Below are positions 16,623 through 40,497 of a stretch of DNA of 40,497 nucleotides, piece by piece; position 1 is the stretch's first letter; each line of letters opens with the position of its first letter. Origin of the DNA: Pirellulaceae bacterium (GTDB lineage: Bacteria; Planctomycetota; Planctomycetia; Pirellulales; Pirellulaceae); the NCBI GenBank assembly GCA_011087765.1, contig JAALLA010000017.1:1-40497 (forward strand), written 5' to 3'. The notes beneath the pieces were generated by a model. That model saw only the letters and a list, made by a program, of their open reading frames with translations. It searched no databases and had not been told where the DNA came from. The position numbers and the translations under genes were made by a program.

Positions 16623-16697
<75 letters not shown>

Positions 16698-24925: not shown

Positions 24926-25284
24926 GAATGCCTCAAGTGGGGAAATCGTCTCAATACAAAACACGATGGACGGGGAATTTCTCCTCGTACACTACACAGA
25001 TGTCTATTTCTAAGATACTCGTTGAACGAGCAAAATGTCAATTTTTTGTGGCTTTTCTGTCCGATGTGCGGCGAATGAAGTCCGAATAATTCGTTCGCAT
25101 TGATTTGGCTTTGATCATTGAAAATGCTGGCGTACTAAAAACTCGAACAATGGTCGGTTCAAATTGAGGTTTCGGAAAAAAACGGTCATTCCTTATATTC
25201 GTTATGTCGGGAAAGCGAAATTTAGGTGCTTCGCTCTGGCCGGCGCACATTAACGGCGAAACGAAAGTGAAAGAGGCACGGCTT
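24926..25284. other. 359-bp divergent gap
   Basis: It holds the SD of the minus-strand gene and probably promoters in both directions. A 13-bp palindrome CTCGTT-G-AACGAG is at 25018-25030, and an extended upstream reading (in frame from 25204) of the next gene is possible but unlikely. Nothing else is seen. Confidence 0.5.
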
Positions 25285-25848
25285 ATGCTACTGGAATCCA
25301 AAAAGTTGCGAGTCATTTTTGGTTGGAATGTATTCGTTTTTGCAGCCTTTTGCGGGACTTTAGAGGCTCAGTCGAATTCACCACAGTCTCGAGAGCAGGC
25401 GGCCAGGATTGCCGAAATTGAAGAGTTGCGGAAAAAAATTGGGGGTGGTGTGGCGGAATCACTTGGTGAGTTGCTTGACCCCAAGGCCGCCCAACAGGAA
25501 TTTGCTCTCGAATTGGAAAGGCTTTCCGGTGAGAGTGCCCCACCGCTAGTCAAATCAAAAGACGATTTAACAACAGGGGTAATTCCCTTGGGTCCGACTC
25601 CGGTGGTTGGGAAACCCAGGTTGCTTTCCCCGCGTCCAAAGCTCAGTGGTCGTTCGCTCTGTCAATCCATTGCGAGGAAACTCGATGGGATCACCGCAGA
25701 TTTGGAAGAAGCCAGTTATTACGAGGACGCAGATTCGATGCGAAAATTGGCGGAGAGCTACTGGCGAAAAGCACGTAAAATGCAACCTGTGCCCGGGAAG
25801 TCAGCGTTGCGCGTGCTCCCGTTGGGCGCTCTCGAGGAAAAAAAATAA
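25285..25848 (+). CDS. small exported protein of unknown function
   Basis: A 187-residue protein with a signal-like hydrophobic segment (VIFGWNVFVFAAFCGTLEA, cleavage near LEA-QS), then a helical, Glu/Arg-rich region (about 30-80), a Pro/Ser linker, and a helical C-terminal part (LCQSIARKLDGITADLEEASYYEDADSM). No family is recognised. The ATG at 25285 begins a normal signal peptide and has GAGG about 9 nt upstream; an ATG at 25204 would add 27 residues before it. It precedes the pilus cluster by 359 bp on the same strand, but no functional link is visible. Confidence 0.65.
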   Translation: MLLESKKLRVIFGWNVFVFAAFCGTLEAQSNSPQSREQAARIAEIEELRKKIGGGVAESLGELLDPKAAQQEFALELERLSGESAPPLVKSKDDLTTGVIPLGPTPVVGKPRLLSPRPKLSGRSLCQSIARKLDGITADLEEASYYEDADSMRKLAESYWRKARKMQPVPGKSALRVLPLGALEEKK

Positions 25849-26207: not shown

Positions 26208-27932
26208 ATGGCAACAAACAAAATTCAGGGGTTTGTAAAACTCCTTTTAGATTCCGGATCGATCACCCAAGACCAAGTCGTCGACGCCGAGAATCTGGCA
26301 AAGCAAACGGATAAGGCGATTGCGCAGACATTGGTTCAGCTCGGTTATTCTACCGAAGAAGAAGTGATGCGCGCTCAGGCAGAGCATAATCGCATGGAGT
26401 ACGTCGACCTTAGTGAGGTCGAGATTCCAGAGATGGTAATCGAGTTAATGCCCGAAGCGGTCGCCCGTGAGAACACCGTTTTGCCGATGAGCGAAGTCGA
26501 CGGCGGCTTGAAGGTCTTGATGAGCGAGCCAGGTGACGTTGATACGATTGAGAAGTTGAGGTTCATTCTCAATCGCGATGTGACCGTTGCGTTGGCGACA
26601 AGGTCCAGTATCACCCTCGCGATCAACCGAATGTATGGTCAGGTCGAAGGTGAATCGGCTGACTCAATTTTGCAAGAATTTACCGACACGGCGATCGACT
26701 TTACCGAAACAGTTGATGACGACGGCGGCAGTGACGGGAAGGGAGATGAAGAGTCGAGCGCCCCTATCGTGCGGCTTGTTCAGCTCATGATCACCGAAGC
26801 GGTTCAGTTGAGGGCTTCGGATATCCATGTCGAACCATTTGAGGATCGTGTCCGGATTCGCTATCGAATTGACGGTGTGCTTCACGAGCGTGATCGCCTG
26901 CCGAAGCGTCAGTTGGGTGCCATCATTTCCCGCATCAAAATTTTGTCATCGATCGATATTGCCGAGAAACGGCGACCGCAGGATGGGCGGATCAAGGTAA
27001 ACGTTGGTGAAAAAGAGCTGGATCTCCGAGTCAGTATCATTCCCACCAGCATGGGGCAGTCGGCGGTGTTGCGATTGCTCGATAAAGACAATATTCGAAT
27101 CGGTGTTCGACAACTCGGGTTCTCCGAGGAGATGTATAAGAAATTTAACAATCTGATTCGCCGTCCGAACGGAATTATTCTGGTTACCGGGCCGACGGGT
27201 TCTGGAAAAACGACGACCCTCTACGCGGCCCTCAATGGTCTCAATCGGCCTGATCGAAAGATCATCACCGCGGAAGACCCGGTCGAATACTATCTGCCGG
27301 GAATCAATCAGGTGGAGGTTAAGCACCGCATCGGGTTGGACTTTGCCCGGATCATTCGCTCGATGTTGCGGCAGGCCCCCAACGTCATTCTAGTCGGTGA
27401 AATGCGAGACGCTGAGACGGTTTCCATGGGAATCCAAGCCAGTCTCACTGGACACTTGGTTTTCAGTACACTGCATACGAACGATGCGCCCACTGCTGTA
27501 ACGCGGATGATTGACATGGGCGTGCCGGGATATTTGGTGGCCAGTAGTGTGGTCGCGATCTTGGCTCAGCGTTTAGTTCGAACGATTTGCCCCAAGTGTC
27601 GGGCGAGGCATATACCTGGAGAGGCTGCGATTAAAGAGGCGGGTTTGACGCCAGAGCAGATTGAGGGTGCGACGTTTATGCGGGGTAAAGGCTGTAATAG
27701 CTGTCAAAAATCAGGGTTTCGCGGCCGAGTCGGCATTTACGAGATGTTGATCGTGGATTCCAAGGTTCGCGAGATGATTTTCGCTAATTCCCCGGCACAG
27801 GAGATTCGGACCTACGCGATGTCGGCGGGAATGACCACGCTGTATCAGGATGGTATCGACAAAGTATTGAAGGGTTTTACGACATTCGACGAAGTCTACC
27901 GGGTAGCGAAGCGAACAGAGCAAGACGTGTAA
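26208..27932 (+). CDS. pilB: type IV pilus/type II secretion assembly ATPase (PilB/GspE family), first copy
   Basis: A 574-residue cytoplasmic secretion ATPase that powers pilin polymerisation. The N-terminal GspE-type domain is at about 5-145, followed by an acidic linker (150-183). The ATPase core has Walker A GPTGSGKT (328-335), an Asp-box region (EDPVEYY, 356-362), Walker B VILVGEMRDAET (393-404) and the His-box TLHTND. A zinc tetracysteine (C461, C464, C496, C499) is typical of PilB/GspE. The family RQDPD before Walker B reads RQAPN and the family VGEIRDLET reads VGEMRDAET, unlike the second ATPase of the cluster. It starts with ATG and is the first gene of the cluster. Confidence 0.95.
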   Translation: MATNKIQGFVKLLLDSGSITQDQVVDAENLAKQTDKAIAQTLVQLGYSTEEEVMRAQAEHNRMEYVDLSEVEIPEMVIELMPEAVARENTVLPMSEVDGGLKVLMSEPGDVDTIEKLRFILNRDVTVALATRSSITLAINRMYGQVEGESADSILQEFTDTAIDFTETVDDDGGSDGKGDEESSAPIVRLVQLMITEAVQLRASDIHVEPFEDRVRIRYRIDGVLHERDRLPKRQLGAIISRIKILSSIDIAEKRRPQDGRIKVNVGEKELDLRVSIIPTSMGQSAVLRLLDKDNIRIGVRQLGFSEEMYKKFNNLIRRPNGIILVTGPTGSGKTTTLYAALNGLNRPDRKIITAEDPVEYYLPGINQVEVKHRIGLDFARIIRSMLRQAPNVILVGEMRDAETVSMGIQASLTGHLVFSTLHTNDAPTAVTRMIDMGVPGYLVASSVVAILAQRLVRTICPKCRARHIPGEAAIKEAGLTPEQIEGATFMRGKGCNSCQKSGFRGRVGIYEMLIVDSKVREMIFANSPAQEIRTYAMSAGMTTLYQDGIDKVLKGFTTFDEVYRVAKRTEQDV

Positions 27933-28313
27933 GTGGTCCTTATGGGTGGTTATTTCCTGTTTTGAGGCGCTTGAGTGGCAAAATGGGAAGATTTTTGGAC
28001 GTCGAGAGGTTAGATGCGAACAATAAGGGCGATCTTCGGATTTATATTCATTCAATTAACAAGAAGATCACCAATCCCTCCTCGTCTCCCGAAAAGCCAC
28101 GAACAACTCACTTATCCTTTCTTGGTCCTAACTCAACGCTTCCCTTGTTTGGATTTAAGCACGTCCTTGGAACTGGACGCTCGCTTTGAACTGGACGCTA
28201 GACAACTGGAAACAACACGAGCCGGCCTCCATCACTGGGATGAGGCTGGAGTTTGAGTGACGCGATCTCCAATTGGAAATCGGTTAAACAGGAAACGTTA
28301 AAGAAAAAGACTT
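27933..28313. other. 381-bp gap between the first ATPase gene and pilT
   Basis: No gene is convincing. It holds a pair of 12-bp direct repeats, GAACTGGACGCT at 28170-28181 and 28188-28199 (period 18). Its length suggests that pilT has its own promoter, but I could not place one. Confidence 0.5.
28170..28199. repeat. 12-bp direct repeats upstream of pilT
   Basis: GAACTGGACGCT at 28170-28181 and 28188-28199, 18 bp apart, about 115-145 bp before the pilT start. They may be a regulator-binding pair or a slippage product. Confidence 0.6.
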
Positions 28314-29447
28314 ATGGCAACCGTACTTATCGACAAACTGCTTGAGGCCTGCGTGAAGCAGGGTGCGAGCGATATTCACATTACGACTGGCCAACCGCCG
28401 GTTTTCCGTCTGCATGGTCGATTGCGAAAACTGGAAACCAAGGTTCTCGATTCTGAAGACACCGTTGCGTTGATGAAGAGTATCGCGCCGGAGCGATGTC
28501 AGCGTGAATTGCAGGAAATCGGAAGCTCGGACTTTGGATTTGCCTACGCCGACAAGGCGCGATTTCGCGTGTCCATTTTCAAGCAGCGCGGCGACATTGC
28601 GATGGTGCTGCGTCAGATTCCGAATGAGATGCTCCCTCCTGAGGTGCTCGGCGTTCCCGACATCTTCACAAAACTGTGTATGCGTCCACGTGGATTGATT
28701 CTGGTAACCGGACCGACGGGATCGGGAAAGAGTACAACGCTGGCCAGTATGGTCAATTTTATTAACGAGCGGGTGGATCACCATATCATTACGATTGAAG
28801 ACCCGATTGAGTTTTATCACTATCACAAGAAGTCAACGGTCAACCAGCGAGAAGTCGGTGTTGACGTTCCCTCGTTTTCTGAAGCGATCAAGCGAGCGTT
28901 GCGTCAGGATCCGGACGTGATCCTGGTGGGTGAGCTTCGCGATTTGGACACCATCGAAGCTGCGATTTCGGCCGCGGAAACAGGTCACATCGTGTTTGGT
29001 ACTCTGCACACCAATAGTGCTCAGGGTACGGTGAACCGAATCATTGACGCCTTCCCCGGTCAGCTTCAGGAGCAAATTAGAACACAACTTTCGACGTCCT
29101 TAATCGGCGTGCTCGCCCAGACTTTGTTGCCGCGGATTGGCGGCGGTCGAATTGCTGGATTCGAATCGTTGGTAGTAACGCCGGGTGTGGCTAACCTGAT
29201 TCGCGAAAACAAGACCTTTCGAATTAACTCAGCGATTCAGACGGGTGCCAAGTTTGGCATGATGCTAATGGACGATTGCCTGTTTGAGCATTGGGTCAAT
29301 GAGAAAATTGAGATGGAAGATGCCCTTGGTAAGGCGCAGGATCCGGACGCACTTGCCAAACGGATTGCAACCGCTCGTCGGCAGATGGAAGAAGGCATGC
29401 CGTTGGGTGAGGGTGATTTGGAAATGGACGACGAGGAAGATTACTAG
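28314..29447 (+). CDS. pilT: type IV pilus retraction ATPase
   Basis: A 377-residue PilT-family ATPase that depolymerises pilins and drives retraction and twitching motility. Walker A is GPTGSGKS (133-140), the Asp box IEDPIEFYH follows (161-169), Walker B is DVILVGELRD (201-210), and the His box is TLHTNS (230-235). The N-terminal PAS-like part includes ASDIHITTGQPP. The family C-terminal AIRNLIRE reads GVANLIRE. It lacks the N-terminal GspE-type domain and the zinc tetracysteine, which separates it from the PilB copies. Its tail after residue 330 is acidic and about 30 residues longer than usual (GEGDLEMDDEEDY). It lies between the two PilB-type genes. Confidence 0.95.
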   Translation: MATVLIDKLLEACVKQGASDIHITTGQPPVFRLHGRLRKLETKVLDSEDTVALMKSIAPERCQRELQEIGSSDFGFAYADKARFRVSIFKQRGDIAMVLRQIPNEMLPPEVLGVPDIFTKLCMRPRGLILVTGPTGSGKSTTLASMVNFINERVDHHIITIEDPIEFYHYHKKSTVNQREVGVDVPSFSEAIKRALRQDPDVILVGELRDLDTIEAAISAAETGHIVFGTLHTNSAQGTVNRIIDAFPGQLQEQIRTQLSTSLIGVLAQTLLPRIGGGRIAGFESLVVTPGVANLIRENKTFRINSAIQTGAKFGMMLMDDCLFEHWVNEKIEMEDALGKAQDPDALAKRIATARRQMEEGMPLGEGDLEMDDEEDY

Positions 29448-29474
29448 AGAAAATTTAGCTCCCTGTTTTGCAAC

Positions 29475-29501
29475 ACTGAAATTCACAAAACTGAAATTCA
29501 C
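29475..29501. repeat. 12-bp direct repeats upstream of the second pilB
   Basis: ACTGAAATTCAC at 29475-29486 and 29490-29501 (period 15), in the 90-bp gap between pilT and the second PilB-type gene. They may be a binding-site pair or a slippage product. Confidence 0.6.
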
Positions 29502-29537
29502 GAATCAATAACTAAATATTAAAGAATTAGGTGTCCT

Positions 29538-31256
29538 ATGGCCGTCCGAAGACTCGGTCAAATTTTTGTCGACTTAGGTTTTATCACCGACGATCAGCTG
29601 GAAATGCTCGTCGAAGAGCAAGCTCAAAATCCAGGTCAATTGATTGGCCGGGTGGCTGAGGATATGGGACTGGTTTCTGATGACGAATTGATCCAGGCGC
29701 TTGGCGAGCAATTTGGGCTCAATCACGTCGATATCGAGGGTGTGGTGCCGCCCGACGCTGCTCGGGAATCGGTTTCCGATGCGATGGCACAGCTGTATCG
29801 CGTCATTCCGCTGCAACTCAATGAGAACGTCTTGACCCTTGCGACTTGCGACCCGCAGAATCTTTCGATGCAGGATGAGTTGCGACGCTTTTTGGGTTAC
29901 GACATTCGGTTGTTAGTAGCCACAGAATCTCAGATTCTAAAATCGATTGACAAGTTCTTTAATGAAGAGTCAGAGAGTATCGAGAAGATCATTAGCGATC
30001 TCGAAAACGATGACGATCTCAAGCGCGCGACCGAAGCTCTTTCTGCCGACGGCCCGATTAACCTTTCGGATGTGAATGAATTGGTTGAGAGTGCACCGGT
30101 TCGGAAACTACTCAATATGGTGTTGTTGTTGGCGATTAAAGATCACGCCAGTGACATTCACTTTGAGCCGTTTGAAGACGAATTCCGGATTCGAATTAAA
30201 GCCGACGGTGTATTGTTCGAGATGGTTCCGCCGCCACGTCACCTCGCGTTTGCGATCACAACGCGGATTAAAGTGATGGCGAATCTAAATATTTCCGAGC
30301 GACGCCTGCCGCAGGACGGTCGAATCGAACTGATGGTGGGTGGTCACCCGGTTGACCTGCGTGTCAGTGTCTTGCCGACCATGTTTGGTGAGAGTGTTGT
30401 TTGTCGAGTGCTTGATCGTTCCGTGGTCTCACTCGATCTCCACAACGTCGGGATGGACGCACATATTATGGAAGAGTTCCGTGAGGTCATTGCGAAGCCG
30501 AACGGAATTATTTTAGTTACCGGGCCAACGGGTTCCGGCAAAACCACGACGCTCTACTCGGCCCTGTCTGAATTGAATGTGATCGAAGACAAACTCATCA
30601 CAACGGAGGATCCGGTTGAGTATGACATTGACGGCATTATTCAAATTCCAATCAATCATGATATTGACGTGACGTTTGCCAAGGCGTTGCGAGCTATTTT
30701 GCGGCAGGATCCGGATAAAATTCTGGTCGGCGAGATTCGAGATCTCGAGACTGCGGAGATTGCCGTTCAGGCATCTCTAACTGGCCACACTGTTTTCAGT
30801 ACTTTGCACACCAACGATGCTCCCAGTACGGTGACGCGAATGAAGGATATGGGCGTTCCGACATTCTTGATTACCGCGACCGTCGAGGCAATTTTGGCTC
30901 AACGGCTAGTACGGCGGATTTGCGCTGAGTGCCGCGAGGAAGTGGCTGTCAGCGAAGAGATGATGCTCGAACTTGATTTGAGTTCCGAGCAATGCGAAGG
31001 CAAGAGTTTTTACCGCGGAGCTGGCTGTGCCAGTTGCAGCAACACGGGCTACAAGGGGCGTGTCGGACTGTTTGAGTTGATGATCATGGACGACGAATTG
31101 CGCGACATGATTAATGAGAATTGCAACACCGACGATTTGCGTACCAAGGCTCAGTCCAAGGGGATGCGTTTGTTGCGTGACATGGGTGTCGGACTTGCAT
31201 TTGAAGGTACGACGACGGCAGAAGAAGTGGTTCGCGAGACGGTGCTGGACGCGTAA
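29538..31256 (+). CDS. pilB: type IV pilus/type II secretion assembly ATPase (PilB/GspE family), second copy
   Basis: A 572-residue assembly ATPase with an N-terminal GspE-type domain (about 1-145), an acidic linker, Walker A GPTGSGKT (329-336), Asp box TEDPVEYD, Walker B RQDPDKILVGEIRDLET (389-405), His box TLHTND and a zinc tetracysteine (C462, C465, C497, C500). Every family residue I can check is canonical, in contrast to the first copy. AGGTG lies about 6 nt before the ATG. It directly precedes the platform protein gene, as gspE precedes gspF in type II secretion operons, so it is the likelier partner of PilC/GspF here. Confidence 0.95.
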   Translation: MAVRRLGQIFVDLGFITDDQLEMLVEEQAQNPGQLIGRVAEDMGLVSDDELIQALGEQFGLNHVDIEGVVPPDAARESVSDAMAQLYRVIPLQLNENVLTLATCDPQNLSMQDELRRFLGYDIRLLVATESQILKSIDKFFNEESESIEKIISDLENDDDLKRATEALSADGPINLSDVNELVESAPVRKLLNMVLLLAIKDHASDIHFEPFEDEFRIRIKADGVLFEMVPPPRHLAFAITTRIKVMANLNISERRLPQDGRIELMVGGHPVDLRVSVLPTMFGESVVCRVLDRSVVSLDLHNVGMDAHIMEEFREVIAKPNGIILVTGPTGSGKTTTLYSALSELNVIEDKLITTEDPVEYDIDGIIQIPINHDIDVTFAKALRAILRQDPDKILVGEIRDLETAEIAVQASLTGHTVFSTLHTNDAPSTVTRMKDMGVPTFLITATVEAILAQRLVRRICAECREEVAVSEEMMLELDLSSEQCEGKSFYRGAGCASCSNTGYKGRVGLFELMIMDDELRDMINENCNTDDLRTKAQSKGMRLLRDMGVGLAFEGTTTAEEVVRETVLDA

Positions 31257-31368
31257 CAAATCAAAAAGCAAATTACCAAACGAATTTTTAATATTTAATT
31301 TTACGAACGACCTGAAAAATGACTCGGCGAATTGAGCGAGTCGACCTAAGTCGAAAAGGAAACTGAAA

Positions 31369-32775
31369 ATGCCAACTTATCAGTTTGAAGCGATGGACCC
31401 ACAGGGTCAGGAAATCAAGGATATCATCGAAGCGGCCACGCAGGATGATGCCCAGGCCACGATTCGATCGATGGGCTATTTCGTGACCAAAATTGCGGTT
31501 CAAAAACAGGCCAAAGGTGCTGCGGCCTCGTCTGGAAAAAATCGTAAATCCTTCGCGGTCGGTGGTGCCGGTGGTAAAAAGATCGTGACGTTCACGCGTC
31601 AGCTATCGATTTTGCAGGACGCTGGACTTCCGATTCTTCGAAGTTTGAAAATTCTTGAAGAGCAAGCCAAGCCGGGTGCGTTGAAGAACGGCCTGATTGA
31701 CGTTTGCGATGAAATTGAAGGTGGAGCTTCATTGTCCGAAGCGCTGGCAAAATCACCTAAGGTTTTTGACCGGCTGTACGTCAACATGATCAAGGCGGGT
31801 GAAGCGGGTGGATCGCTGGAAGTGATTCTTCGTCGTTTAGCCGAATTTAAAGAGCGGACTCAGTCGCTGAAGAACAAAGTCATCGGTGCGATGATGTATC
31901 CGATCATGGTCGTCTTGTTCACGATCGGTATTTTGACATTCATCATGCTCAAAATTATTCCTGAATTCCAGAAGATGTTCACCGAGTTTGGAATTGAGCT
32001 GCCAGCGATGACTCAGTTGTTGATGGCGATTTCAGATCGTGTTGTGAACCTCTGGTTCCTGTTTCCATTGATGCCGATTGCGGTCATTCTGTTTATCTCA
32101 TTGGTTTGTAAGTTTCGAGCTGGACGCATGGGTTGGCACCTGTTCCTGCTCAAATTGCCAGTGATGGGTAAGTTGGTTGAAAAATCAAATCTCGCGAGAA
32201 CGACCCGAACCCTTGGAGCCTTGATCGCTTCGGGTGTTCCCATTATCGAAGGATTGACCATTACCCGAGAAACATCCGGTAATGCGATGTATGAAAAAGT
32301 TTACAGTAAAGTGACCGATTCGATTCGCGAAGGTGATACGATCGCCAACCCGATGAAGGCGAACTCATTTCCTGCGTTCCATCCGGTAACGGCATTCTTC
32401 TTTTTGATCAGTGTTTCTTTGCCGCCATTGTCGATCTTGTTTGTCAAACCGGATCTCTGGTTCTTTGTGATGTACGGCTGTGCATTCATGTCGCTGATTG
32501 GCGGTGCGTGGTACTTCCTGAACTACAAAAAGCCTGTGGTGGAAGATCTGGTCGTCAACATGGTGGCGGTGGGTGAAGAGACTGGTGAGCTCGATACGAT
32601 GCTCTACAAAGTCGCCGACTACTACGAAGAAGAAGTCGAGCAGTTGACCGAAGGAATGATGAAGATGATCGAACCGTTGATGATTATTTTCCTTGGACTG
32701 GTGGTGTTGTTCATTGTGGCATCCCTGTTCATGCCGCTGATCGCGATCATTTCCGGTTTGACCAGTAACAAGTAA
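31369..32775 (+). CDS. pilC: type IV pilus/type II secretion inner-membrane platform protein (PilC/GspF) with an extra membrane hairpin
   Basis: A 468-residue integral membrane protein around which the ATPase and pilins assemble. Both T2SSF domains are present: the first at about 73-197 (FTRQLSILQDAGLPILRSL; MIKAGEAGGSLE at 140-151) with a helix at 177-197, the second from about 275 (ARTTRTLGALIASGVPIIEGL) to the end. The second domain is interrupted at about 336-391 by a 55-residue hydrophobic insertion with two helices; the family normally goes straight from FPP to M.AVGEETG. The core resumes with MVAVGEETGELDTML (398-412). That explains a length above the usual ~405. AAAGGA precedes the ATG with good spacing. 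A perfect hairpin follows the gene. Confidence 0.95.
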   Translation: MPTYQFEAMDPQGQEIKDIIEAATQDDAQATIRSMGYFVTKIAVQKQAKGAAASSGKNRKSFAVGGAGGKKIVTFTRQLSILQDAGLPILRSLKILEEQAKPGALKNGLIDVCDEIEGGASLSEALAKSPKVFDRLYVNMIKAGEAGGSLEVILRRLAEFKERTQSLKNKVIGAMMYPIMVVLFTIGILTFIMLKIIPEFQKMFTEFGIELPAMTQLLMAISDRVVNLWFLFPLMPIAVILFISLVCKFRAGRMGWHLFLLKLPVMGKLVEKSNLARTTRTLGALIASGVPIIEGLTITRETSGNAMYEKVYSKVTDSIREGDTIANPMKANSFPAFHPVTAFFFLISVSLPPLSILFVKPDLWFFVMYGCAFMSLIGGAWYFLNYKKPVVEDLVVNMVAVGEETGELDTMLYKVADYYEEEVEQLTEGMMKMIEPLMIIFLGLVVLFIVASLFMPLIAIISGLTSNK

Positions 32776-32784
32776 TGAAATCTC

Positions 32785-32817
32785 GGAGCGATTGCCCGAA
32801 TGAACAGCAATCGCTCC
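32785..32817 (+). promoter_or_regulatory. perfect 11-bp hairpin between pilC and the pilin genes
   Basis: GGAGCGATTGC (32785-32795) and GCAATCGCTCC (32807-32817) with an 11-nt loop, nine bases after the pilC stop. There is no T tract, so it is more likely a processing or stabilising hairpin that lets pilin mRNA outlast ATPase mRNA, or a leaky terminator. Confidence 0.5.
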
Positions 32818-32898
32818 CTGTTCCGTATAGTAAGAATTTAACGCAAGAATCCAGCCCGCTTTTCCAACCTATTGAAGAAACTCTTCCGGAGAAATGAA

Positions 32899-33798
32899 AT
32901 GACTAATCAACGCCGCTTTCGATCGAGATCCGGTTTCACGTTAACCGAAATAATGGTCGCCATCACGGTCATGGCTATTTTAGCGGGCATGTTGATGGCT
33001 GCGGTCATTCCGGCGATGTCATCCGCCCGGCGGACTGCCATCTTGATGGAGATGAAACAGATCGAACAGTCGCTTGAGAATTTCAAAACGCATCACGGTT
33101 TTTATCCTCCAAGTTGGGTCAGGATTAGTAACTCTGCCAACCCTCCCACAACGCTGTTGAAATACATCAATCGGCTTGCCCCGAACAACCGCGAGGGTGA
33201 AGTGGTCAGTGGTTCCAACCGCCGGATCGATTTGTGGTGGCAGAACGTCGGTCAAAATATCAATCATGCTTCGGGGCAGGATTTGGTTTTTTGGCTGTCT
33301 GGTTTACTTAAAAACAAGCAATACCCACTTACCAACGGGGTGGGTCCCGGTTCGTATCCCACGACTTATGACGACGCGACCTTGGAGCGGGATGTGTTTT
33401 ACGAATTCAAAGGAGATCAGTTGATCGAGAATGGCCTGGTTGCCTCTTACGTCCAACAAGCCAACACAGAAGCCCCGTTCCTTTACATTGATGCTGGGAG
33501 TTACAACAACGGGACTTCGTACGATGGTTACTACGTTCAAAATAATATTGGTACACCGTTCCGGTCTTATGAAAATCCAAAATCATTCCAACTGATAACC
33601 TGGGGTTTGGATAAGTTGGCTGTCGATCCAGACAATCCTCCGGCAAACCCAACCCAGTGGGGAGTTCAGACTGCTTCAGGGCTCGTCAATCCGGTTCTCG
33701 CCAGTGACAAGTACGCGTCGGACAACCTTTGCAATTTCTGCGATGGAATGTTGGATCGCTATCTTTCCGGCACCTTCGATAGTTCGGCGGTGAAATAA
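32899..33798 (+). CDS. type IV pilin/pseudopilin-like protein, first of the set
   Basis: A 299-residue prepilin. The class III signal is RSRSG (G12) followed by FTLTEIMVAITVMAILAGML, with Glu at mature position 5; a prepilin peptidase should cut after G12. The hydrophobic helix is followed by a typical amphipathic stretch (SSARRTAILMEMKQIEQSLENF). The soluble region (about 55-299) has no family I can name. Near the C-terminus is a CxxC pair (CNFC), possibly a disulfide or metal site. The ATG at 32899 has GGAG 7 nt upstream; a TTG at 32872 is less likely. At about 300 residues it is longer than most major pilins. Confidence 0.88.
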   Translation: MTNQRRFRSRSGFTLTEIMVAITVMAILAGMLMAAVIPAMSSARRTAILMEMKQIEQSLENFKTHHGFYPPSWVRISNSANPPTTLLKYINRLAPNNREGEVVSGSNRRIDLWWQNVGQNINHASGQDLVFWLSGLLKNKQYPLTNGVGPGSYPTTYDDATLERDVFYEFKGDQLIENGLVASYVQQANTEAPFLYIDAGSYNNGTSYDGYYVQNNIGTPFRSYENPKSFQLITWGLDKLAVDPDNPPANPTQWGVQTASGLVNPVLASDKYASDNLCNFCDGMLDRYLSGTFDSSAVK

Positions 33799-33842
33799 CC
33801 GCGGGTCCGCTCTTCTCATTCCCTCCTTACGGCTCTTCGAAC

Positions 33843-34832
33843 ATGAAACATAAACCCAGAAAACGAATCATCCCTCGCGATTCCGGTCGATGTGGTTTCA
33901 CATTGATTGAGTTGTTGTTGGTGATTGCGATTGTGACCGTGCTCTCAACGATGGCGTTGGGTGTCATGCGTCAGGCTCAGACCGATGCCAAGATTTCGGC
34001 AACCGAAGCGCGGATTACGCAAATCAATGCGATCATGGAAGTCGTGATGGAAGATTATTCGGTTCGGCGAATGCCAATCGATTTGAATACTATTCCCGCG
34101 GGTCCCGATATTCCTCCGCGAACATGGCTTCGCCAACTGCGCTATCAAATCCTGTCAGAATTGCTCGATGTCGAATTGCCACGTCCGTTGTTTGATAATG
34201 CTCAGGGGAGCTACATCCCCAATTCAAACCGGGGGATAAGTCCCTTTTTTGATGGCCCGGGGTATGTTGGCCTGGGAGTGTCTTCGGGGGCTTGGGATCC
34301 GATTGGTAACTATCGTGCTGATTCGGTTTTAGGTGACGCGAATGCCCCAAGATCCGCGATCATGAGGCGCTGGGAACTACTCGCCCAGCAATATCAAAAC
34401 GACTTGGATTTGCCCGGCGAATATCTTTATCAGTTTCTTTATAGCTATGATTTTGACGGGGCGCCTGCGGTTGAGGCGCTCGGTGCTCAGGCGATTGCCG
34501 ACACCGATGGGGATCAGTTGATGGAGGTTGTGGACGCGTTTGGCGAACCGCTTCTTTACGAGATTCAGCAGCGTGCTCCCGAGAATCAAAACACTGATGG
34601 GGATACCACATTGTACCCCGATGGAGACACGACTCCCGACGTTGATGACACGGATGACGACGCCGACGGCATTAGCGATCTTGAGGACCTCGATGATGAC
34701 GGCGATGGGATGCCTGACTTCCGTGATGAGAACGGAACCTACGACTACCTTTTTCACGAACAAAGGTTTCAGGTCATTAACAATATTCGAATCATTGTCT
34801 TTTCCAGTCGTGACACCCAGGATTTTAATTGA
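33843..34832 (+). CDS. type IV pilin/pseudopilin-like protein with Asp-rich calcium-type repeats
   Basis: A 329-residue prepilin with signal SGRCG (G18) then FTLIELLLVIAIVTVLSTMA, Glu at mature position 5, GspG-like in the N-terminal helix. Residues 249-300 are extremely Asp-rich with thrombospondin type-3/EF-like spacing (TDGDTTLYPDGD, DDADGISDLEDLDDDGDGMPD), and a separate TDGDQLMEVVD is at 221-231. This implies calcium binding on the outside of the cell. GspG pseudopilins also bind calcium, but by a single different site. It starts with ATG 44 bp after the first pilin and 18 bp before the third, so these genes form a tight run. Confidence 0.88.
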   Translation: MKHKPRKRIIPRDSGRCGFTLIELLLVIAIVTVLSTMALGVMRQAQTDAKISATEARITQINAIMEVVMEDYSVRRMPIDLNTIPAGPDIPPRTWLRQLRYQILSELLDVELPRPLFDNAQGSYIPNSNRGISPFFDGPGYVGLGVSSGAWDPIGNYRADSVLGDANAPRSAIMRRWELLAQQYQNDLDLPGEYLYQFLYSYDFDGAPAVEALGAQAIADTDGDQLMEVVDAFGEPLLYEIQQRAPENQNTDGDTTLYPDGDTTPDVDDTDDDADGISDLEDLDDDGDGMPDFRDENGTYDYLFHEQRFQVINNIRIIVFSSRDTQDFN

Positions 34833-34850
34833 TCCGCTAACGAGAGAAAT

Positions 34851-36026
34851 ATGATGAAAAAATCTTTCAAAAGAAATAGCGGGATCACCTTGGTTGAACT
34901 CTTGGTTGTGATTTCAATCCTTGCTGTAATTACGGCGGTGATGCTGCCACGGTTGCGAACGATTAACAAAGATCGGAACATTCGTGAATCGGCGCGTGTG
35001 CTCGGCAGTCTATTGGCCAAAGCAAGTCAAAATGCGGTCAATGATGGAACCGCCGGTGTGATTATCGAACGGAACGAAAACTTCGTCGATGATGAAGGCG
35101 TGATTTACGGTGCTTCTACCATGTACTTGATGCGCAAAGTGCCGGCCTTCACTGGCGACTTTGCGACAGGTGATCCTAAAGGTCAGGCGACGCCATTGGC
35201 GGATTATGCCTTGGAGATCTATCCTCCGTTTGAGCCAGATGCAATTCTGGTTAACGATTACATCAGTTTGAATTTTAATTCGGTAAAATACCGGATCATC
35301 GGGATTGAGGATTCGGAAACGACATTTACTGATCCCCCGGAATCAGTGCCCTATAAAGTCCTGACTCTCAGTTCTGGTATGGGGGGAGCAGTCTTGCCTG
35401 CGTTACCGCCTGTTGGAGCTTCGGTTCCTTTCATTGTTCACCGGCAACCACGTAAGCTGGCGTCCAGTCGTGTCGATCTTCCCAATGGATTCTTAGTTGA
35501 CCTGCGTTATTCGGGGCCGATTAATGAGAATGCCAACACAGCCGGACCGCTAGTAGAACCATCGCGAAGTTGGTTCGATGAAATAATCTTGCCACCCAAT
35601 CCAAACCTTAACTCTGTTGCTAAGTTGAATACGAGTTACGCGTCACGGACGGTGCAGATCATTTTCAATTCGAACGGCGGCGTGGATCGAGTTTACTACT
35701 ACAATCCTTATCTCGATGTGAACTACGTCGACGAATTTGAGAACCCCGCTGATTTTCCCGACGTAAATAAATTCGGCTTTGGTTTTATTGACTCACGCAT
35801 TCCTAATGGTCCCCTTTTCTTTTACGTCTCCGAGTATGAAATTGAATCATTGCCGAATAATGGCGTGCTTGATTCGCCGGCGAATTTATGGGTCACCCTC
35901 AACAACAGTACAGGCGCGACCAACGTAGCCTCTAGCACAGTCCCAACTGATCCCACTGCTACCCTTGGTGCTCGCATTGAGTATGCCCGCGGAATTGCCA
36001 AAGAATTTCAGAGTGCTGCTCAGTAA
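34851..36026 (+). CDS. GspH/FimT-like minor pilin
   Basis: A 391-residue prepilin with signal RNSG (G10) then ITLVELLVVISILAVITAVMLPRL, Glu at mature position 5. The segment after the helix (ESARVLGSLLAKASQNAVNDGTAGVII) resembles GspH/FimT minor pseudopilins, and the rest is a beta-rich soluble domain much larger than GspH. It starts ATG-ATG with GAGAG upstream, 18 bp after the previous gene. It is expected in the pilus or pseudopilus tip complex. Confidence 0.88.
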   Translation: MMKKSFKRNSGITLVELLVVISILAVITAVMLPRLRTINKDRNIRESARVLGSLLAKASQNAVNDGTAGVIIERNENFVDDEGVIYGASTMYLMRKVPAFTGDFATGDPKGQATPLADYALEIYPPFEPDAILVNDYISLNFNSVKYRIIGIEDSETTFTDPPESVPYKVLTLSSGMGGAVLPALPPVGASVPFIVHRQPRKLASSRVDLPNGFLVDLRYSGPINENANTAGPLVEPSRSWFDEIILPPNPNLNSVAKLNTSYASRTVQIIFNSNGGVDRVYYYNPYLDVNYVDEFENPADFPDVNKFGFGFIDSRIPNGPLFFYVSEYEIESLPNNGVLDSPANLWVTLNNSTGATNVASSTVPTDPTATLGARIEYARGIAKEFQSAAQ

Positions 36027-36052
36027 CGCTTCTCCTCATCCGGATTCCTTCC

Positions 36053-37171
36053 ATGAAAAAAATAATAACCAACCAACCTAGAAACGGTCTTTCGATTATC
36101 GAGGTTCTGACTTCGATCGTGGTCGCCATGATTGGCGTTTTCGGAGTCATGGTCCTGATCCCTTTTGCAGTCAAGCAAGCCAAGGTGGGGATGGATAGTG
36201 ATGCCGCAGTCCAATTGGCGCGGAATGCGTACTCGCAGTTTGAAATTAGTGGTTACCGCAATCCTGAAAACTGGTGGATCCCGGCACAGAACCGAGCTTA
36301 TGATCCAGCGACTGATGGTCCCCAAGTATTCTCGCTTGATCCGTTAGGCGTGATTGAGAATGGGTCGGGAAGCTTTCCCTTGAATCCAGCGATCAATGGA
36401 GGAACGCTACCGGCTGAGTTGCAGTTTCCCGTACTTAATCTCGCGATCCCTGCCGGTCTACAAGACAATAATGGCCAATGGGTGTTTGGCAAGACGGGAA
36501 TGACAAAAGGTATTGCCCAGAGGTTTTTTAGAGGTGGCAATGATCTTTCATTCGGAGGTGGGGTAGACGATCTTTCCCCGCCACTGCAGATTTTCGACCG
36601 TGATGATAACGGGGCCGCCATCATACGCCAGTCAAAAGGTCGGATCTCCTGGAGTGCAATCGTTGTTCCTTATATCAATCAGGCCGTGACAACGGACAGT
36701 GACGAGTGGTCTTATAAACTCTATATCCTGGCCTACAAGATTCGTAAGACACGGGCGGACGATGAAGACGGGCAAATGGCGGTCACACAACTCTCCGAAG
36801 CGAACGCTGGTCCTCAAGCTCCACTTACCAATGTCGTTATTGACCAAAGTGTTTCGGTGGCTGATGGCAGTCTTAAGCGAGATGACTGGGTCATGCTGAT
36901 CAATCAAGATCCCAATGCAGACGCGAGCACACCAGACGCGTTCAAAAAACAAATTGCGTTTTGTCGCATCGTAAATCTGATGGCAAATTCAGAGGAATTA
37001 CCCGCTCCGGTCGATACGCTGCTTACCTTAGACGGACCCGATTTTAATTTCTTCGATCCGACTGGACCGCAAGGCACTCCAACGTACATCGTTCATCTCA
37101 AGGATGTGATCGGCGTGTTTGAGCATACGTTTACTCCTGAAACCGAATCCAATTGGACGGTTAATTTTTAA
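36053..37171 (+). CDS. PilV/GspI-like minor pilin
   Basis: A 372-residue prepilin with signal QPRNG (G12) then LSIIEVLTSIVVAMIGVFGVM, Glu at mature position 5. The LSIIEVL start and the Gly/Val-rich helix resemble PilV/GspI-type minor pilins. The soluble part carries Asn/Asp/Pro-rich loops; no family is named. It starts with ATG, 26 bp after the third pilin and 72 bp before the giant GspK-like gene, so it belongs to the same unit. Confidence 0.85.
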   Translation: MKKIITNQPRNGLSIIEVLTSIVVAMIGVFGVMVLIPFAVKQAKVGMDSDAAVQLARNAYSQFEISGYRNPENWWIPAQNRAYDPATDGPQVFSLDPLGVIENGSGSFPLNPAINGGTLPAELQFPVLNLAIPAGLQDNNGQWVFGKTGMTKGIAQRFFRGGNDLSFGGGVDDLSPPLQIFDRDDNGAAIIRQSKGRISWSAIVVPYINQAVTTDSDEWSYKLYILAYKIRKTRADDEDGQMAVTQLSEANAGPQAPLTNVVIDQSVSVADGSLKRDDWVMLINQDPNADASTPDAFKKQIAFCRIVNLMANSEELPAPVDTLLTLDGPDFNFFDPTGPQGTPTYIVHLKDVIGVFEHTFTPETESNWTVNF

Positions 37172-37243
37172 CGCTCCCCCCTACTTCTCTCCTCACTTAG
37201 ACTTCTCTCAATTCCAACCGAAACCTGTCCATTGGAGGCAGCC

Positions 37244-40200
37244 ATGAAAATCAGAAATCCGAAAAATCGCCAGGGAATCACGCTGCTGTTTGTTGTCAGC
37301 ATGATTGTTCTGTTCTTGTTGATGGGTACGACGTTTGTTGTGATCTCGAATGACTATTTCAAGGCCGCCAGAAAGCGTGGACAGTCGAAACTCCATGTCG
37401 TCGATCACGAAGCGACGATTCGTCGAGCTTTTTACGACGTCGTTCGTGGCCCCAGTTTACTCAACCAGTCATCTCCCTTGAGGGCGCATGATTTATTGTC
37501 GGATCAGTATGGTTATGGATTCAAAGCATTTGTTACCGACGCTTATGATTTCGCTGATTCAAATCTAGATGGCAATATCGACAATAATGATAATGGTGTA
37601 GAGCCAGAGCAATTCTTGCGGCTTGTTTTGGGTTCAAATACCGGGATTAAAAATCAGGTTCAGGATTTGCGTAAATCGGATGACGCCTACGCAGACTTTC
37701 TTAGTCAAGCGGAGTCCGCTAGCCCTAATACTTTTGACGTGCCAGTCGCCGGTTTATACAACGGTCTAGTTTTCTCGTTCGTTACAAAATCAGCGACCGG
37801 TTACTCAACAAGAATTGTCGAGCATTCATTCAACGAAGATACGGGAAACCATGAGTTTATCATTCCCTTTCCGCGCGTTGGGCAATTTGGCGGTGTAGGT
37901 GGTTCGATAGCGGACTTGGTTGAATCACAGGTGATCGTGAATGGTCGTGATTTTTCAGGCACCGGTGCGGGTGGCCAAAAAGCTGATCCGGTACGAGAAT
38001 TGGGTGATTCGGCACTACAGCCTAATCGCGTTGGTGAAGCTGGTGCCGATTTTCTAAGTAATTACTTGGATGGAGGAGATCACAGCCCCAACGAGTCTTA
38101 TGACGCTGCTGATTTTCAGAACATGTTTTTGAGTGGCCGCGATCGGAACGGATCTGTAATTCCGAGTTTTCATCGAGAGTCATTGGGTGATTTTAATGGA
38201 GGTGGCGTTGTTGTCGTGCCTGATCCGGGCGGAGAAAATGATTTTCGGGTATTTCAAAATAATACTTTAGACGTCGATTCTGATAACGACGGTGAAAAAG
38301 ATGCGGTGTTTATCGACAATGGTTACGAAGTCCTCACGGATGCCGATGGTAGACGTTTTAAACCATTGGTCGCCTACAAGGTGGTCGACCTTGATGGTCG
38401 GCTGAACCTGAATGCTCACGGCAGTCTGGTGCAAGCCAAGGATGATTACTTCATCTCGCAGCAAATTCATAATTCCGATCTGCCACGTGGTCAGGGATAT
38501 GGTCCCCCCGAAATTTCTTTCGCGGGAATTGTGTTCAATGATGATCTCAATCGCGATGCCAGTCTTCCCTCCCTCGACGCCAATCTGATATTAGAAAAAT
38601 ATCAATACTTGATGGAAGGTCGGTACGGCCAAAGCGGGACGCCAGGATATTACAATGATCCGGAACCGGATACACTGCGAAAGCTATTTGGTTATCCGCG
38701 CGGGGTCGTGAATTGGCCAGTCGCCGTTGGAACCGTGAATCGCGATGCGGCAGACAATGGATCGCTGTTTGCCTCGAGCGCGATGGATATTCACGGCCGA
38801 TTTAGTTTTGGCTTTCCTGAGTTGTCGGTCGTTCTCAACGGCAATACCACTGATGATTTTCGGGATCCCAATGTTGCGGGCTTTCCTAACAGTCTGCCTG
38901 TGATTGATATGGTCGATTCTGAGTTTGGGAATGATACCGAGTACGCTAACAACCCGTATGAAATGACATTCGATTCTCAGTCAGGTTCAAGCCACTCGAA
39001 TTCTCCGTTCTCTCCAGCAGATTTGGAGCGACATTTGCGACCGTTCGACGTCGATACAAATGTTCTCTCCAAACGCATTCCGTTTGATAGTGAAACCGAC
39101 AGTGAGACCAACGTAAACAACGGCATTGTTGGTGGAATTCCCAGATCGAAACGTAATTTGATTACGACTGAGAGTTGGGATGTCCCCATGATTCCTGACA
39201 ATTTTAAAGCGAAATTGATCTCGCGGTTGCCCATTTTGGCGTCGGACCTGGGAGCAAATTCAACCCTGGCTCAGATCAATCAACGAGCTGATTCGTTAAT
39301 CGATCAAGGTTTGTTCGCGCCCGAGTTGCTGGCCGGTTTGAAGATGAATATCAATCGGCCATTGGGCAATGGATGGGACGATAACGGCAACGGACTTGTG
39401 GATGAACCCGCCGAGGCGAATCTCGAATCCAATCGCGATTTTACCAAGTTTAAAAATCCCGGATTCGATCTTGATAATGATCTCACTCCCAATGGTGGTT
39501 GGAATAACGAGTCGAAGGCGCGCATTATTTTTACAAGGCAGCTTTATATGTTGGCCCTGTTATTATCCGATGTGGTTCCGGTGGATTTGGACGGCGATGG
39601 GACTCCGACGGCTCCGGAATATTCAGAAGTGATTGCGCAGTGGGCCGTTAATGTGGTCGACTTTCGGGACCCTGATAACATCAATACAAGATTTGCGTTT
39701 GACCCGAATCCCTGGGACGGAAATTGGAACCCTACTCCTGCGAATGTGGTATGGGGTGCCGAGCGGCCTGAGCTATTGATTACAGAGACGTTGGCGGTAC
39801 ACGCAAGAAGAACCGAAGATCTTGGCGATCCAGGTGGAAATGCCAACGGTAACGCGAATGGACAACAGAATGGTAATCCAAATCCTGGAACGCCACCTGG
39901 ACAAAATAATGAACTGTTCGACCAACGACTGCGTCCGGAGGCATTTTCTTACATCGAGCTTTATAATCCTTGGACACAGAACAGCTTAAATCAGCGGCTA
40001 GACCCGAGTCTATACAATGATACTCAAAGTGTTGCGTTGGATCGTTTTGTTTCGGAAGCGAACGGGACCAGCAGTCCTGTTTGGAGACTTTCCATTGATC
40101 GCCCTGATCGGGATGGGGATGGAATCGATGGAAACGATACCGAGGCAGGGACCAAAAGGGTCATCTATTTCACGAATTCAGCCGATGTGTCTGATGACAT

Positions 40201-40497
40201 TATCAACGATCACGGAAATGGTGTAGAGGTTTATTTTTCAGATCGAGACAACGCCTGGAACCCATATTTATTGAAGCCAGGTAGTCAGGCATTGGTTGGA
40301 ACGCTCGGTATTCAAGAGGGTGACTGGTATCGATCGTTTATGGGCAGAAGAACCGGCGAAACGGAACTTAATCTGACGCTGGATGACCCTGATGATGCCT
40401 TGAATACGCAGAATATCCCAATCAATCCCGGGGCGGGGGCTGGTGGGGGGGGGGGGGGGGGGGGGGGGGGGGGTGTGTTTTTTTTTGTGTTTTTTTT
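37244..40497 (+). CDS. giant GspK/PilX-like pseudopilin, partial at the right edge
   Basis: The frame is open from 37244 to the window end, at least 1084 codons (the last ~18 read through homopolymers and are unreliable). GGAGG precedes the ATG by 6 nt. The N-terminus has a class III signal (NRQG, G11) then ITLLFVVSMIVLFLLMG, with Phe instead of Glu at mature position 5, as in GspK and PilX-type tip pilins. GspK is about 300 residues, so this is more than three times larger. Five Asp loops resemble EF-hand/dockerin calcium sites, at residues 105-116, 343-354, 712-724, 781-792 (DLDGDGTPTAPE) and 955-967 (DRDGDGIDGND region). A Gly/Asn/Gln/Pro-rich linker is at about 865-890. It is last in the pilin run, as GspK is last in GHIJK operons. 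Confidence 0.85.
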   Translation, partial: MKIRNPKNRQGITLLFVVSMIVLFLLMGTTFVVISNDYFKAARKRGQSKLHVVDHEATIRRAFYDVVRGPSLLNQSSPLRAHDLLSDQYGYGFKAFVTDAYDFADSNLDGNIDNNDNGVEPEQFLRLVLGSNTGIKNQVQDLRKSDDAYADFLSQAESASPNTFDVPVAGLYNGLVFSFVTKSATGYSTRIVEHSFNEDTGNHEFIIPFPRVGQFGGVGGSIADLVESQVIVNGRDFSGTGAGGQKADPVRELGDSALQPNRVGEAGADFLSNYLDGGDHSPNESYDAADFQNMFLSGRDRNGSVIPSFHRESLGDFNGGGVVVVPDPGGENDFRVFQNNTLDVDSDNDGEKDAVFIDNGYEVLTDADGRRFKPLVAYKVVDLDGRLNLNAHGSLVQAKDDYFISQQIHNSDLPRGQGYGPPEISFAGIVFNDDLNRDASLPSLDANLILEKYQYLMEGRYGQSGTPGYYNDPEPDTLRKLFGYPRGVVNWPVAVGTVNRDAADNGSLFASSAMDIHGRFSFGFPELSVVLNGNTTDDFRDPNVAGFPNSLPVIDMVDSEFGNDTEYANNPYEMTFDSQSGSSHSNSPFSPADLERHLRPFDVDTNVLSKRIPFDSETDSETNVNNGIVGGIPRSKRNLITTESWDVPMIPDNFKAKLISRLPILASDLGANSTLAQINQRADSLIDQGLFAPELLAGLKMNINRPLGNGWDDNGNGLVDEPAEANLESNRDFTKFKNPGFDLDNDLTPNGGWNNESKARIIFTRQLYMLALLLSDVVPVDLDGDGTPTAPEYSEVIAQWAVNVVDFRDPDNINTRFAFDPNPWDGNWNPTPANVVWGAERPELLITETLAVHARRTEDLGDPGGNANGNANGQQNGNPNPGTPPGQNNELFDQRLRPEAFSYIELYNPWTQNSLNQRLDPSLYNDTQSVALDRFVSEANGTSSPVWRLSIDRPDRDGDGIDGNDTEAGTKRVIYFTNSADVSDDIINDHGNGVEVYFSDRDNAWNPYLLKPGSQALVGTLGIQEGDWYRSFMGRRTGETELNLTLDDPDDALNTQNIPINPGAGAGGGGGGGGGGGVFFFVFF
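40445..40497. other. homopolymer tail, probable sequencing or contig-end artefact
   Basis: A 29-base G run (40445-40473) is followed by T runs interrupted by G. Such runs are typical of failed base calls at read or contig ends, and nothing in the gene before suggests a real poly-G. The coding sequence should be considered to break near 40430. Confidence 0.85.

Follow-up and report, generated by a model that had tools for sequence, protein, structure and literature searches.

What does a planctomycete build from a gene cluster that carries the motors of a type IV pilus and ends in the gene of a giant protein resembling the secretion pseudopilin GspK? The question is raised by a contig from a Pirellulaceae bacterium (JAALLA010000017.1, assembly GCA_011087765.1), all 40,497 nucleotides of which form the window analyzed here (the entire contig G000:C240). 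From position 26208 onward it encodes two assembly ATPases (PilB1 and PilB2), a PilT retraction ATPase, a PilC platform, four pilins and the giant protein, K, which a preliminary description made from the sequence alone had read as a hybrid of type IV pilus and type II secretion system (T2SS). We consider it probable that these genes encode the motors, platform and fiber of a retractable type IV filament machine, representing a planctomycete lineage of such machines, the envelope conduit of which would be supplied by an unlinked PilM locus.

The nine open reading frames lie where the preliminary description had placed them, all on the forward strand. Families were assigned by Pfam and NCBIfam profile searches, which gave a weak match for pilin 4 and none for K. 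PilB1 (26208..27932) is an assembly ATPase (T2SSE, 2.4e-134, 448 bits) with an MshEN domain (3.6e-21, 75 bits) whose cyclic di-GMP (c-di-GMP) motif is degenerate, and PilB2 (29538..31256; T2SSE 1.1e-132, 443 bits; MshEN 1.8e-20, 73 bits) carries an apparently intact c-di-GMP–binding motif. Between them is the retraction ATPase of the PilT/PilU family (28314..29447; TIGR01420, 441.1 bits with a cut-off of 319.1), and after them the PilC/GspF platform (31369..32775; T2SSF 2.3e-58, 196 bits), which has an extra hydrophobic insertion at approximately residues 332 to 380. The four pilins are large (308-391 residues), and the N_methyl pilin motif exceeded its cut-off in pilins 1 to 3. Pilin 1 (32872..33798) has one N-terminal hydrophobic segment and a GspG-like N-terminus with glutamate at position +5 (TIGR01710, 1.5e-8, 34.8 bits, below cut-off), pilin 2 (33843..34832; N_methyl 5.4e-7) has Asp-rich DxDxDG-type loops near its C-terminus, pilin 3 (34851..36026) has a GspH/ComGE-like N-terminus (NF041013 1.6e-8 and TIGR01708 3.6e-6, both below cut-off) and pilin 4 (36053..37171) a PilV/GspI-like one (TIGR02523, PilV, a weak match at E 0.0015, below cut-off). 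At least one DxDxDG-type loop was present in 11 of 13 homologs of pilin 2, and in 6/19, 5/19 and 8/14 homologs of pilins 1, 3 and 4, respectively. The NCBIfam Verru_Chthon cassette name was set aside, its matches lying in the N-terminal pilin helix region only and a literature search for the name returning nothing.

The arrangement of these genes is conserved. The order PilB1-PilT-PilB2-PilC was found in all nine order-level genomes readable upstream (G020, G024, G025, G033, G041, G042, G049, G052 and G059) out of 11 fetched, the contigs of G008 and G017 beginning inside the cluster. At class and phylum level, a PilC search gave a match in 104 of 119 genomes, and among 20 loci fetched from it the full order was present in 12 and PilT-PilB2-PilC at a contig start in one more. 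Downstream, a K match was obtained for 43 of 60 relatives, and 43 of the 74 K loci offered at least 6.5 kb of upstream sequence, with pilC in 39 of these (it was not found in L114, L116, L128 and L176) and a pilin in 40. Since the order is conserved across the taxonomic order and the ATPase-platform core across much of the phylum sample, the linkage of the cluster genes, as read from these sequences, is not due to chance. The preliminary description, which had proposed this comparison, is supported in its central idea of one hybrid filament machine that has both a retraction ATPase and an additional assembly ATPase, along with large pilins and a giant GspK-like protein; its suggestion that the system is particular to this group suits K, with its giant size, and the insertion in the platform, and the PilB-PilT-PilB-PilC core occurs across the phylum sample. 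The closest named relative of the cluster is a locus labeled Mariniblastus (L107), in which the best segment of K is 85% identical. A locus labeled Candidatus Nealsonbacteria (L129) also carries pilC, pilins and K, and is probably a misbinned planctomycete contig.

The two assembly motors form separate lineages. PilB rows were assigned by best match at more than 44% identity and more than 350 bits, yielding 26 PilB1 and 60 PilB2 sequences. In a midpoint-rooted tree of 70 ATPases (the 26 PilB1, 37 of the 60 PilB2, four T2SS GspE and three others), PilB1 was set off by one branch (92/99) and PilB2 by another (98/100), and the T2SS GspE proteins stood apart; the split thus appears to predate the sampled phylum. 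Both lineages retain Walker A (PilB1 25/26, PilB2 55/60), Walker B (25/26 and 59/60) and the Cys4 motif (26/26 and 59/60). They differ in the c-di-GMP motif, which was scanned in a relaxed form of the 24-residue motif given in the available text of PMC5013675. In a class set composed of the window's own order, family f21 and the loci of the 74-locus K set, the motif was found in 38 of 47 PilB2 and in none of 15 PilB1, two of the nine PilB2 misses being frames cut at the edge of a fetched stretch. Outside this set the contrast is absent (PilB2 3/13, PilB1 3/11). The curated c-di-GMP model NF053729 (cut-off 38) likewise scored the window's PilB2 above threshold, at 43.7 bits, and its PilB1 below, at 25.7. 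PilB2 resembles the MshE ATPase of PMC5013675 in its MshEN motif, whereas the other motor of the cluster lacks the motif in the class set. Retained next to each other throughout the phylum sample and differing in this motif, the two assembly ATPases lend themselves to the question of why a single filament would need two extension motors.

The platform insertion lies in the second cytoplasmic domain of PilC and was present in all seven order members aligned, spanning approximately 30 residues in three of them and more in the other four, which belong to the window's family. The alignment also included two further platforms encoded by the window's genome, and neither has the insertion. Hydropathy analysis indicated an added membrane-like segment in the window's PilC and in G052, and a value below threshold in G041.

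The open reading frame of K runs on to the contig end, and the gene itself covers 37232..40438. The protein is real to approximately residue 1069, where its best matches to relatives end, and the gene is truncated by the contig end; the following run of poly-G and then poly-T (40446..40497, unstranded), outside the K gene, is probably an assembly or sequencing artifact adding false Gly and Phe codons. Full-length relatives were obtained as 41 open reading frames, picked from the 74 loci for reaching a stop and covering most of K, and measure 1535 to 2589 residues (median 1719), counted from the match start so that the first residues are missed in some. A feature of GspK pseudopilins is the lack of glutamate at position +5 of the mature pilin. 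K has a pilin N-terminus that likewise lacks it in all 40 rows extending over this residue, 14 of the 54 rows being without coverage. A DxDxDGxxD loop (D349-D351-D353-G354-D357) is kept in 50 to 54 of the 54 rows, which makes the calcium dependence raised in the preliminary description plausible from sequence, and the NhN strand motif occurs a second time close to the C-terminus in 39 of the 41 frames.

Profile comparison suggests that K may be a greatly expanded GspK. Against a profile of 31 GspK rows, with the genome's own GspK included twice, K gave short and weak matches in the same order in both proteins: the N-terminus (P 1.7e-4), an NLN strand (0.04), GWDDNGNG (0.01-0.02), PGKINLNT (0.004-0.013, a stretch that also matches two other places in GspK) and a C-terminal VGYFE strand (0.001-0.009), several of these values coming from hand-chosen sub-ranges. 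A reversed control, run for one C-terminal part of K only, gave a P value of 0.37. When K was compared with an alignment of three GspKs, the N-terminus alone was aligned, with a probability of 8.7%. The 1088-residue K frame matched neither T2SSK_1st (PF21687) nor any other Pfam or NCBIfam model at E up to 1, and the K profile found nothing in the Protein Data Bank at E up to 1, where an alignment of true GspKs finds two GspK sequences. An AlphaFold model of residues 1 to 1069 (mean pLDDT 65.7) shows a long N-terminal helix; a fold comparison returned no pilin or GspK among the 50 matches listed, a negative that carries no weight against either fold.

A second K paralog occurs in the same genome on contig C181 (L035:11145-15845), standing alone without the other cluster genes, beside genes whose motifs look like those of folP and gyrA. 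In G024 (L045), two tandem K copies are followed by a gyrA-like gene. The two arrangements together suggest that K was duplicated and that the copies later split.

The same genome harbors several other machines. Contig C176 encodes an ordinary T2SS, with E, F, four pilins, GspK and two genes whose positions suggest L and M, and its GspK matches T2SSK_1st (PF21687, 3e-18) and NF037980 (1e-21), with a GspK score of 77.8 bits. In order to calibrate the cluster's scores, five proteins of this system (GspE, GspF, GspG, GspK and an H-like protein) served as controls, all of which fell below the curated cut-offs; a missed equivalog cut-off was therefore no longer used as an argument against a T2SS. 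Among the membership scores, GspG alone, and not GspE or GspF, clearly separates cluster from control: pilin 1 scored 34.8 bits and the T2SS protein 87.8, both below cut-off. On the GspF model the cluster platform reached 361 bits and the T2SS platform 342.3, again below cut-off. PilB1 scored 604.7 bits on the GspE model versus 603.8 on the PilB model (TIGR02538, cut-off 675.65), a tie at +0.9, and PilB2 596.6 versus 605.4 (-8.8), while the T2SS ATPase preferred GspE by 56 bits (618.6 versus 562.4). As this ATPase also misses its own cut-off, the shortfall of the two PilBs on the PilB model may reflect nothing more than divergence. A third locus with an ATPase, PilT and a secretin lies on C102, a locus with an A24 peptidase on C216 is read as Tad, and four further ATPases (C159, C220, C330 and C371) are read as CpaF-like. 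On C18 (L038:7573-11977), a PilT-like gene is followed by two divergent T2SSE-family ATPases, with low-scoring similar neighbors in relatives. A T2SS GspK match was obtained in 42 of 59 class-sample genomes; it was lacking in all 14 genomes of family f87, planctomycetes that may lack an ordinary T2SS, and in three other genomes.

Two further candidate parts were sought outside the cluster. A PilW/GspJ-like pilin follows K in G025, G033 and G041, and its best match in the window's own genome is on C352, unlinked (41%, 2.3e-56). In each of five single-contig relatives, a single long A24 peptidase (429-481-residue frames) occurs beside short ones; the window's genome, which is 88% complete, yielded no A24 peptidase of this size.

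Where, then, is the conduit? The preliminary description had placed the secretin and PilM outside the window, and this can be refined: queries with the genome's own PilM, secretin and the two proteins encoded between them found no match near the cluster in 113 loci, except for one secretin in G041, a search that distant homologs may escape. The genome has five secretin genes (C102, C216, C21, C6 and C115). Those on C102 and C216 sit in their own loci and the C21 type adjoins the T2SS in G059, so that C6 and C115 remain as candidates. On C115 the order is a 783-residue PilM (L067:6883-9234), a 574-residue and an 871-residue protein, both single-pass, and a 1103-residue secretin (L042:9504-12815), with no ATPase. 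The PilM exceeds its model's cut-off (TIGR01175, 138.2 bits with a cut-off of 133), and the family that it matches best is that of Amuc_1101 (178.2 bits, cut-off 650). Its topology is that of GspL, a hydrophobic segment at residues 385-403 being followed by approximately 380 residues. The secretin matched the Amuc_1098 family (59.6 bits, cut-off 750) in fourth place after PilQ, GspD and MshL. The 574-residue protein gave a marginal T2SSM match (E 0.045), and no NCBIfam model matched either single-pass protein at E 0.01. Of the PilM/N/O/P/Q set, PilM above cut-off and secretins are thus present and unlinked to the cluster, and N, O and P are suggested only by topology, position or weak matches.

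All ten genomes searched contain PilM, with PilM and the secretin each matched in all seven relatives fetched for them, and the two genes lie 7 to 10 kb apart in five of the ten (the window's own, G020, G024, G025 and G049; the secretins of G020 and G042 were identified by coordinates only). Co-occurrence of PilM with the cluster was discarded as uninformative, PilM being present in all 23 genomes given, including seven without a PilC match at 1e-60. In Rhodopirellula baltica, one array, covering one condition in one study, showed pilM, pilT, pilB and pilC to be induced together, as reported in the available text of PMC2754498. Going by gene numbers, pilT, pilB and pilC lie close together, as would be expected from the cluster order in Rhodopirellula loci L168 and L170, and pilM is far off. 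The same text lists another pilC, RB11597 (type 4 fimbrial assembly protein), as repressed by heat shock.

Several observations weigh against a retractable machine assembled from this cluster and the PilM locus. The pairing of the two loci is inferred from elimination, the array and family resemblance; a second orphan secretin exists on C6, PilM and the secretin lie 0.2 to 1.9 Mb apart in G033, G041, G042, G052 and G059, G093 combines a PilC match with a weak PilM only, and PilM also occurs in the seven genomes without strong PilC. PilT is not part of every locus: four of the 20 class/phylum loci read PilB1-PilB2-PilC with no PilT between, and in three PilC alone matched. K had no match in 17 of 60 relatives, including 13 of 27 same-genus genomes; as five of those 13 are more than 90% complete, K was lost or is too diverged there, although more distant families carry it. 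The kinship of K to GspK is weak. Finally, in G041 (L053) a GspD-type secretin starts approximately 3.8 kb after the last pilin of the cluster; its GspD score is 350 bits against a cut-off of 351, and its closest match is the T2SS-type C21 secretin.

This last case would fit a second, specialized T2SS, in which the pilins form a short periplasmic pseudopilus and K, as an oversized GspK, pushes particular exoproteins through the secretin. The succession of platform, pilins and K resembles gspF-G-H-I-K, the G/H/I-like pilin N-termini leading to a K-like pilin without Glu+5 and with collinear GspK matches, and the candidate PilM fusion has the topology of GspL. We nevertheless regard this explanation as unlikely: a retraction ATPase is embedded in the cluster, and the T2SS is not known to have a dedicated one; the genome already possesses an ordinary T2SS with its own GspK; pilin 1 scores well below the T2SS protein on the GspG model; neither PilB prefers GspE as the T2SS ATPase does; and K matches neither T2SSK_1st nor an NCBIfam GspK. 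Given PilT and the additional T2SS, a secretion device, one of the two functions first proposed, is less likely than a pilus. The preliminary description had held that separate T2SS and pilus machines together with lost synteny in relatives would speak against it; the separate T2SS exists, but synteny is conserved. At the other extreme, the locus could be a standard type IVa pilus with scattered genes and an idiosyncratic minor pilin, of undistinctive mechanism. The PilB, PilT, PilC, PilM, pilin and secretin families are all those of a type IVa pilus, and the available text of PMC6668835 describes type IVa pilus genes as very diverse and located in multiple loci. What makes this quite improbable in our view is the combination of two PilB lineages flanking PilT and separate across the phylum sample, the platform insertion, pilins of 308-391 residues beside a K above 1500, and a partner locus with PilM fused through a transmembrane segment to a periplasmic domain in an unlinked conduit.

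In the retractable filament machine that we favor, a prepilin peptidase would mature the pilins and K, and K, pilin 4 and the unlinked PilW/GspJ-like pilin would initiate the fiber and form its tip. Assembly through PilC would be driven by a c-di-GMP–gated PilB2 and by PilB1, which is probably ungated, and PilT would retract the fiber. The PilM-transmembrane-periplasmic fusion, the two single-pass proteins and the secretin would form the conduit through the envelope. The likely use would be a retractable surface pilus that attaches to and captures glycans and other macromolecules. A tip role for K is in keeping with modular type IV pilins, which in the available text of PMC8179133 bear extra domains on a pilin N-terminus and are expected at the tip. 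The extreme multi-domain example there has 860 residues, well short of the K relatives, and in K itself none of the added domains could be recognized as a known one.

The partner locus also links the system to Akkermansia, in which, according to the available text of PMC10688800, Amuc_1098 (secretin), 1099, 1100, 1101 (PilM) and 1102 (pilin) form a type IV pilus locus; the corresponding text of PMC13174399 treats the Amuc_1101 locus of Akkermansiaceae, as MUL2, as part of a type IV-like pilus system that serves attachment to glycans. The C115 locus shares the order of PilM, two proteins and secretin as well as the best-matching PilM family, but its PilM and secretin score far below the Amuc family cut-offs. 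It is possible that both represent a shared planctomycete-verrucomicrobial pilus conduit, and the Amuc_1101 link suggests that glycan-capturing pili may be common to the two groups.

A more tentative extension concerns the crateriform structures, which the available text of Boedeker et al. 2017 (PMC5394234) describes as planctomycete-unique outer-membrane complexes joined to the inner membrane, with 12-nm pili-like fibers that bind dextran; the uptake system that they possibly serve "has still to be characterized". Tubules in two relatives have been likened to the Thermus type IV pilus apparatus (PMC8303584, also available in part), and the accessible portions of the two papers name no gene set for either structure. 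The cluster and the PilM-secretin locus could conceivably be the machine of these structures, a counterpart of the glycan-capturing pilus of Akkermansia and its relatives, although we hold this to be doubtful. The oversized conduit proteins would then form the press-stud contact of inner and outer membrane, the large pilins would make the dextran-binding fibers, extended by two assembly motors of which one is c-di-GMP–gated, and the retraction motor would pull the captured polysaccharide in to the cell surface, from where it would be taken up into the wide periplasm. The idea is strengthened by the Amuc_1101 match and the gene order of the C115 locus, and the T2SS, the C102 machine and the Tad pili are competing candidates. 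A literature search, with subscription journals mostly outside it and sources seen in part, found no description of this cluster as a machine. Naming a conserved set of motors, platform, fiber and candidate conduit makes the uncharacterized uptake system a question that can be addressed by gene deletion, a technique that the available text of PMC5394234 mentions for the laboratory planctomycete Planctopirus limnophila.

Elsewhere in the window, a tRNA-Gly (gcc) gene lies at 16624-16697 on the minus strand. The neighboring genes at 23231-24964 and 25204-25848 were considered as machine parts and dropped, their homologs occurring in same-genus loci only. GMGMGAG-type low-complexity stretches occur both in the first of these, a divergent neighbor, and in the unlinked PilM fusion, within its C-terminal part.

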